Source: Acidovorax sp. 210-6 (lineage in GTDB: Bacteria; Pseudomonadota; Gammaproteobacteria; Burkholderiales; Burkholderiaceae_C). From it: 64,000 bases of DNA. Below the pieces are notes generated by a model, which had not been told where the DNA came from, made no database searches, and saw only the letters and a list, made by a program, of their open reading frames with translations. The DNA lies in contig NZ_JAACJE010000001.1 of the NCBI RefSeq assembly GCF_010020825.1, forward strand, positions 2,294,001 to 2,358,000, written 5' to 3'. Position numbers and translations under genes: made by a program. Positions 37,766 through 39,157 of this stretch are shown here, in pieces (the first letter of the stretch is position 1; every line of letters begins with the position of its first letter).

Positions 37766-39157
37766 TCAAAGCCGAAAATACTCCAAAGCCTGCTGCGCAA
37801 TCGACGCGCCGTGCTCCTGCACGAAATGGCCTGCCTGCGGCAGCACCACCAGTTCGGGCGCGCCGCGCACGGTGTGTTGCAGGCGCTGCATCACCGGCAC
37901 GCCCAGCACAGGGTCCCGTGCACCAGCAAAAAACAGGCTGCGGCCAGCCCAGGTGTTCTGCCAGAAATCGCGCGCAGCCTGGGAGAGCGCTGCGCCCGGC
38001 GCCTGGGGGTGATCGGGCACGAGGCGGGGGAAGGCACGCAGCGCAGCGCGGTGGCCCGCGTCGGGGAACGGCGCATCGTAGGCCGCGCACTCGGCCGCGC
38101 TCAGTTGCGGGTTGCCGCGCGCCTGCAAGCGGCCCACGCCGAACAAGGGCTTGTCGGCGCACATGGCGCGCCAATCCAGAAAGCCCTGCGAAAGCGGCTC
38201 CTCGCCAGTGGCCAGCAGTGTGTTCATGGCCAGCAGGCCGACAAAGCGCTCAGGCATCTCCATGGGCAGCGTCAGGCCCAGGATGCCACCCCAATCCTGC
38301 ACCACCAACACCACGTTGTGCAGGTCCAGCCGCTCCACCAGCTCCAGCAGCACCTGGCGGTGCCCGTCAAAGCTGTGGGCACGTTCCTTCTTGGGCTTGT
38401 CGCTCTTGCCATAGCCGATCAGGTCGGGGGCAACGACGCGGTGGCCGGCCTGCACAAAGACCGGCAGCATGTGCCGGTACAGGTAGCTCCAGGCCGGGTT
38501 GCCGTGCAGGCACAGCCAGGTGATGGGCGCATCGCGCGGGCCTTCGTCGAGGTAGTGCAGGCGCCAACCCGCCAGCGCGGGCAGGTCGCTCACGTAGTGT
38601 GGTGCCCAGGGGTAGCCGGGCAGGTCGGCAAAGCGCGCCTCGGGCGTGCGCAGCGCATCGTCGCGCAGTGGGTGGGCGGCCAGCGCCTGGCTGCGCTGTT
38701 GCTGGCGGCGGGTGCGGAAGAACTGGGCCAGCAGCGCCCCGCATTCCTGGGCCAGCACCCCGCCCTGCACCTGGGTGTGGTGGTTGAGCAAGGGCTGGGC
38801 AAACAGATCCACCACCGATCCGGCCGCGCCGGTCTTGGGGTCTGCGGCGCCGTACACCACGCGCGGCAGCCGCGCGTGCAGGAGCGCACCGCTGCACATG
38901 GCACAGGGCTCCAGCGTCACATAGAGCGTGCAGTCCTCCAGCCGGTAGTTGCCCAACTGCTGCGCCGCCGCCCGCAGAGCGAGGATTTCGGCATGGGCTG
39001 TGGGGTCGTGCCCTGCCACCGGGGCGTTGCGGCCAGTGGCAATCAGCTGGTCGCCACGCACCAGCACAGCGCCCACAGGCACCTCGCCTGCTTGCGCTGC
39101 AGCTTGCGCCTGCGCCAGAGCCAGGCGCATCCAGTGCTCATCTTGCACAAGGTTCAT
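37766..39157 (-). CDS. tadA: TadA tRNA adenosine deaminase fused to haloalkane dehalogenase-like hydrolase
   Basis: A 463-residue fusion. Residues 1 to about 160 are TadA, which makes inosine at the wobble position of tRNA-Arg(ACG): zinc motif HAE (H55-A-E57) and PCAMC (C85, C88). Residues about 175-463 are an alpha/beta hydrolase very like haloalkane dehalogenase DhlA: oxyanion HGNPAWSY, nucleophile D288 followed by W289 (QDWGG), cap-domain W329 at the second halide-binding position, acid D415 and H444 (AGHFVQEHG). All these key residues are present. There is no stop or start between the halves. The ATG lies directly against repeat copy F. Confidence 0.93.

Follow-up and report, generated by a model that had tools for sequence, protein, structure and literature searches.

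The 64,000-nucleotide stretch of DNA analysed here (the window) encodes a single protein in which the tRNA-editing deaminase TadA continues into a haloalkane dehalogenase of the HLD-I type. We propose, with a probability of about 0.6, that this protein is bifunctional and that its dehalogenase tail also has a non-catalytic job linked to TadA, for which it would be kept by selection after the chemistry is lost. The window protein probably combines tRNA editing with the hydrolysis of some halogenated substrate, and the tail of the fusions of the window's type (f1) is probably also a structural partner of TadA. TadA makes the wobble inosine by which bacteria read arginine codons, and it is the parent of the adenine base editors; it would not be expected to carry a natural, conserved second domain on its C-terminal helix. 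The fusion and its relatives form a graded series that runs from two separate genes, through a fusion that resembles a read-through and has an internal start and a fixed fusion of two enzymes, to an enzyme that is dead but keeps its scaffold and finally to a scaffold that has been shortened. This series, together with the repetition of the same loss, makes the transition from an enzyme to a structural part directly testable. A description of the fusion was not found in the full-text literature searched, a search outside which most subscription papers lie.

The fused gene occupies positions 37766–39157 on the minus strand, with the ATG at 39157 and the stop codon at 37766–37768, and forms one ATG-to-stop frame of 463 codons plus the stop. 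The TadA domain (residues 4–158; 38684–39148, minus strand) contains H55, E57, C85 and C88, matches the PDB structure 1z3a and reaches 219.7 bits with the NCBIfam equivalog NF008113, whose curated cut-off is 150. The HLD-I domain (residues 167–462; 37772–38659, minus strand) scores 320.4 bits with NF002043 (curated cut-off 265). By alignment, the nucleophile D288 and the halide-binding W289 are encoded at 38291–38296, the second halide-binding tryptophan W329 at 38171–38173, the catalytic acid D415 at 37913–37915 and the catalytic base H444 at 37826–37828, all on the minus strand. These five residues, which correspond to the HLD-I pentad known from DhlA, are invariant in all 21 standalone HLD-I proteins aligned. 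An earlier note on this DNA had described a single 463-residue TadA–dehalogenase protein with these residues and no start between the halves. Its coordinates proved correct, both halves exceed their NCBIfam cut-offs, and every deaminase and dehalogenase residue lies at the position claimed. Since residues 148–175 of the window linker contain no in-frame ATG, GTG or TTG, no separate start for the hydrolase half exists there, and an internal restart within this linker is excluded.

The junction (residues 152–172; 38642–38704, minus strand) consists of the last TadA helix, which is predicted to be extended (residues 136–161), followed by a ten-residue motif at residues 163–172. Three residues of this motif are specific to the f1 fusions: P163, R165 and A168. 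According to the residue counts, the same specificity holds for K256 and K257 of the K254-P-K-K257 stretch (38387–38398, minus strand) and for G368 of the G368-H-R370 stretch within the PFPDxGHRAA segment (38048–38056, minus strand). In its genome, the window fusion is the sole TadA above the cut-off of the profile search; the profile also gives a weak match, of 32.2 bits, to a separate 438-residue frame. The fusion is also the sole HLD-I of this genome at E 1e-50. The earlier note had called the deaminase essential; tadA (yaaJ) is reported to be dispensable in Bacillus subtilis (PMC10454642).

The structural model of the window protein has a mean pLDDT of 90.1 and matches both HLD-I and TadA structures; the mutual placement of the two domains in the model is uncertain (pTM 0.67). 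The closest solved relatives are E. coli TadA for the first half and DppA (2xt0), DpaA (7avr) and DhlA for the second. In the Foldseek search the model matched DppA with an E value of 6.7e-34 and 51% identity. The dehalogenase half aligns with 2xt0 over 296 columns (TMt 0.95, rmsd 1.7) and is predicted to adopt an alpha/beta-hydrolase fold with a helical cap. The window protein shares with bacterial TadA (E. coli 1z3a, S. aureus 2b3j) the full domain, the H-E-C-C zinc site and the single copy above the cut-off. The solved TadA proteins end after the last helix, whereas in the window protein this helix is predicted to reach residue 161 and to continue into a second domain of 300 residues. With the HLD-I enzymes (DppA 2xt0, DpaA 7avr, DhlA 1b6g) the protein has in common the whole fold and the Asp-Trp-Trp-Asp-His pentad, but the window dehalogenase lacks its own start codon, carries the f1-specific residues R165, A168, K256, K257 and G368, and has fusion relatives that have repeatedly lost the pentad.

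The loss of the pentad was followed in 238 loci with a TadA frame, of which 230 encode at least 300 residues and yield 215 distinct fusion proteins. The full D-W-W-D-H pentad is present in 115 of these proteins, and 100 lack at least one of its residues, a ratio that gives no prevalence, as the loci were chosen by similarity to the window protein. A protein was regarded as pentad-less when any of the five residues was changed or missing in the alignment, which for W329, D415 and H444 is uncertain in shortened tails. The claim of the earlier note that neither half looks decayed thus holds for the window protein and fails for 100 of the 215 proteins collected. The H-E-C-C residues of TadA are present in 214 of the 215, the exception being a fragment at a contig edge. 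When the examined members were coded by genus, 29 of the 81 genera had only intact pentads, 33 had only pentad-less proteins, 11 had both and eight had no tail. Both states therefore occur in 11 of the 73 fusion-bearing genera, which were assumed to be monophyletic; transfer between genera may contribute. For an earlier set of 179 proteins, a quick maximum likelihood tree requires no fewer than 16 changes of the D288–W289 pair, only three of them forced by well-supported branches, and no fewer than 15 for the whole pentad.

The mildest losses concern one residue only, namely D288G in L071 and H444Y in L251. Other pentad-less proteins have full-length dead domains. At the other extreme are tails without the nucleophile elbow, the cap and the C-terminal core, which retain the N-terminal half along with a PFPDxGHRAA-like segment; some of them still end in an A-x-x-Y-F-like sequence. 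Counted from residue 160, the 98 pentad-less tails have a median length of 226 residues (range 176–374) versus 305.5 residues for 110 intact tails. D288 is retained in 12 pentad-less entries, including L197 and L198, in which W289 is changed to D, and L251, in which only H444 is changed to Y. In some of the shortened tails this retention may be a coincidence of the alignment. The N-terminal part of the Pfam domain Abhydrolase_1 scored above the cut-off in all six pentad-less proteins tested. The model of a pentad-less protein from Variovorax (mean pLDDT 71.7; shallow alignment of 24 rows) is good for TadA and confident only in parts of the tail, with means of 10-residue blocks from 27 to 90 and values below 50 for much of the linker and the C-terminus. 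Its PDB matches are deaminases throughout the best 50 of 1399. In one pentad-less locus (L158, genome G190), the tail apparently leaves its reading frame at the end and continues into a stretch similar to the gene that follows, so that the product has 535 residues.

At E 1e-50, the fused copy was the sole HLD-I match in 40 of 40 genomes with an intact fusion. Among 40 pentad-less genomes, 37 had no HLD-I at this threshold, and three had only the fused one, below the cut-off. A transfer of the dehalogenase to another place in the pentad-less genomes was considered and rejected, as no HLD-I outside the fusion was detected in these 40 genomes at E 1e-50 in a search that covered HLD-I only.

Selection on the two halves was estimated by codon maximum likelihood within genera, using F3X4 frequencies and genera with at least three sequences (75 of the 117 prepared alignments). 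It replaced a first pairwise dN/dS calculation, which was discarded because GC-rich codon usage saturates the silent sites. In 12 pentad-intact clades the median omega was 0.111 for TadA, 0.079 for the N-terminal half of the hydrolase and 0.107 for its C-terminal half. The corresponding values in 13 pentad-less clades were 0.100, 0.181 and 0.289. The omega of TadA did not differ between the two kinds of clades (p 0.25), whereas the hydrolase is relaxed in the pentad-less ones in both its N-terminal half (p 0.0008; 0.0005 without the mixed genera) and its C-terminal half (p 0.0003). The higher omega of the N-terminal half implies that part of the constraint went with the chemistry. Omega = 1 was rejected for this half in all 13 pentad-less clades (2dlnL 22.1–169.4), and in 12 of the 13 it is more constrained than the C-terminal half. 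When the two mixed genera are left out (g15, to which L251 belongs, and g122), the rejection holds in 11 of 11 clades, with a median of 0.189 and a range of 0.088–0.33. Two clades whose members share one changed motif, g19 (GLWDH, 3/3) and g25 (PG, 3/3), have N-terminal omegas of 0.105 and 0.088, respectively. In six of the 11 wholly pentad-less genera (g121, g40, g73, g96, g129 and g89) the lost residues vary among members. These losses may therefore have happened independently, and part of the branch length may be older than they are, so that the present constraint on the tail may be overestimated. In fusions with the pentad, selection acts on the chemistry; a portion of the scaffold is under selection in both kinds of fusions.

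The residues that outlast the pentad were identified by comparing 111 intact f1 fusions, 98 pentad-less f1 fusions, 21 standalone HLD-I proteins and four fusions from another family, f3. The f3 fusions were removed from the intact set (115 to 111), and L072 (contig edge) and L086 (split frame) were left out of the pentad-less set (100 to 98). R165 is found in 110 of 111 intact, 94 of 98 pentad-less and one of 21 standalone proteins, and A168 in 111, 97 and three, respectively. K256 and G368 show the same distribution: each is present in 111/111 intact and 96/98 pentad-less fusions and in 0/21 standalone and 0/4 f3 proteins. P163 is likewise new to the f1 fusion and outlasts the loss of the pentad; it is absent from all four f3 fusions, as are R165, A168 and K257. 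Less strictly kept in the pentad-less tails are K257 (79/98) and R370 (74/98). A168, R170, D245, D253, K256 and G368 stand at 96–98 of 98 pentad-less tails, compared with 10 of 98 for D288. N220, which by homology presumably lines the active site, is kept in five of the 98. The retention of f1-specific residues where D288 and N220 are mostly lost speaks for a surface that is kept for the sake of the fusion and not of hydrolysis.

We propose the following scheme for the window protein and its relatives. The TadA half would deaminate A34 of tRNA-Arg(ACG) as usual, and the tail in the window's lineage would act as a DhlA-type hydrolase, with an aspartate nucleophile, two tryptophans for the halide and water activation by the histidine–aspartate pair. 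The N-terminal half of the hydrolase together with the PFPDxGHRAA segment would constitute a module independent of this chemistry, held to TadA through the extended last TadA helix and the PLRxDALRTP motif. TadA may have come to need the module, most simply for domain docking or stability and possibly for a contact with the tRNA body, which would be the reason why lineages devoid of the catalytic residues keep it. The hydrolase scaffold would now take part in the folding, dimerisation or substrate holding of TadA. Seven examined genomes of the window's family, belonging to other genera, encode TadA without a dehalogenase tail (L174 and L205–L210), which counts against the explanation that TadA needs the tail.

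More tentatively, the alpha/beta-hydrolase fold might be an obligate non-catalytic partner of TadA in one family, a bacterial analogue of ADAT3, with the chemistry optional and an f1-specific docking or substrate surface fixed; we hold this possible, at odds somewhat below even. ADAT2/ADAT3, the wobble deaminase of eukaryotes, is comparable in that a deaminase of the TadA family has an additional domain and uses a catalytically inactive partner in substrate handling (PMC9643335). The inactive part is there a deaminase paralogue, and a tRNA role of the fusion tail is an analogy.

The fusion could also be a plain bifunctional enzyme. In that case, joining the dehalogenase to TadA would do no more than couple their expression, and the pentad-less tails would be functionless and in passing decay. 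The whole hydrolase is indeed as constrained as TadA in the pentad-intact clades, and decay has occurred in many genera with shortening of the tails. The rise of the N-terminal omega after pentad loss and the apparently out-of-frame end of the L158 tail also fit such decay. However, functionless tails agree poorly with the rejection of omega = 1 in every pentad-less clade, inside and outside the mixed genera, and with the six residues that remain nearly universal after D288 has mostly gone. In addition, the 33 of 81 genera whose examined members are all pentad-less suggest that some losses are old, and the frame persists in them. We therefore regard this explanation as unlikely and prefer a bifunctional protein whose tail has an additional, TadA-linked role.

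Still less probable, in our estimation, is that the tail is a tRNA-binding module, a bacterial counterpart of the N-terminal domain of ADAT3 gripping the anticodon arm and the elbow. Consistent with this, the tail is attached to the last helix of TadA and has several basic residues that are conserved (R151, R165, R170, K254 and K256), and the eukaryotic ADAT3 N-terminal domain binds the tRNA arm and elbow (PMC9643335). The same paper states that bacterial TadA is active in vitro on small hairpins, which weighs against a need for such a module. The two domains differ in fold, the ADAT3 domain being a four-stranded sheet with helices and the tail of the fusion an alpha/beta hydrolase. A look for a positive tRNA-contact surface, made at the sequence level only, revealed a few conserved basic residues in a tail that is near neutral overall. 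The median net charge is −2 for intact and −0.5 for pentad-less tails, and by this measure a strongly basic tail was not found in either group. The near-neutral charge speaks against strong nonspecific RNA binding, and for this reason we make no claim of tRNA binding for the additional role of the tail.

The fusion is widespread in the family of the window. At least 101 of 399 family genomes, the window included, gave a single match covering at least query residues 28–435 with 54–100% identity; further genomes, among the matches listed, match only up to about residue 290–409. The best 80 of 589 loci include named carriers from Simplicispira, Acidovorax, Hydrogenophaga, Curvibacter, Ottowia and Limnohabitans. 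When 399 genomes of the order were sampled, four genomes outside the window's family gave full-length matches; all four belong to family f3. The fifth f3 genome sampled (G493) has a TadA of 160 residues. In other families of the order, HLD-I and TadA are separate genes among the matches listed. At E 1e-100, four matches were obtained in 369 sampled genomes of the class, three of them fusions of the window's family and one a separate HLD-I. A fusion of the Comamonadaceae type with 72% identity was also seen on a contig labelled Desulfovibrionaceae (L061:5001–6353), which is probably a mis-binned metagenome-assembled genome (MAG). In a Hydrogenophaga MAG (L086:1447–2826) the fusion is broken into two frames, possibly by a frameshift or an assembly error.

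The f3 fusion apparently arose independently of the f1 fusion. In a quick tree of the hydrolase halves, the 38 chosen pentad-intact f1 fusions form one clade and the four f3 fusions another (38/38 and 4/4; SH-aLRT 99 for both), the latter nested among standalone HLD-I proteins. A single origin for all fusions is thus unsupported. All four f3 fusions have an ATG at the hydrolase's own start site, in frame with TadA and 6–9 bases past a GAGGAG or AAGGAG stretch. By this anatomy they look like read-through fusions able to yield either product. The earlier note had offered a real enzyme, a structural helper or a fixed read-through as possible identities of the second domain, and each finds partial support in a different lineage: the first in pentad-intact lineages, where selection on the whole hydrolase is as strong as on TadA; the second in pentad-less lineages, where the N-terminal half is still conserved; and the third in the f3 fusions with their internal ATG and Shine-Dalgarno-like stretch.

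It is very improbable that the fusion results from an assembly error or a frameshift, or that its halves are translated as two separate proteins: the split frame in L086 fits the former, the f3 starts make separate translation plausible in f3, and 144 of the 215 fusion proteins have some in-frame ATG, GTG or TTG at residues 148–175 (TTG being the commonest), but the same open, near-full-length fusion in the family genomes counted above and in named isolates excludes an artefact in the window, the window linker is free of such codons, and only nine of 211 f1 fusions have an ATG inside residues 158–169. The linker between R151 and P163 shows lengths clustering at 4, 8 and 11 residues (11, 41 and 24 of 98 genus-length counts, each length counted once per genus). 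A clustering near whole helical turns is only suggestive, because few events may underlie the clusters.

Downstream of the fused gene, the window contains a gene for an LD-carboxypeptidase (LdcA-like; 35999–37057, minus strand), which is the gene that normally follows the fusion in its relatives. In 40 of 46 loci from named records, ldcA lies on the same strand at most 200 bases downstream of the fusion. In the window two further genes lie between them (37088–37693, minus strand), one for a CcdB-like toxin (PF01845) and one for a Phd/YefM-like antitoxin, whose match of 28.2 bits is under the Pfam cut-off of 29.8. As ldcA adjoins the fusion in those 40 loci and a CcdB match occurs in none of the 46, the toxin–antitoxin-like pair looks inserted in the lineage of the window.
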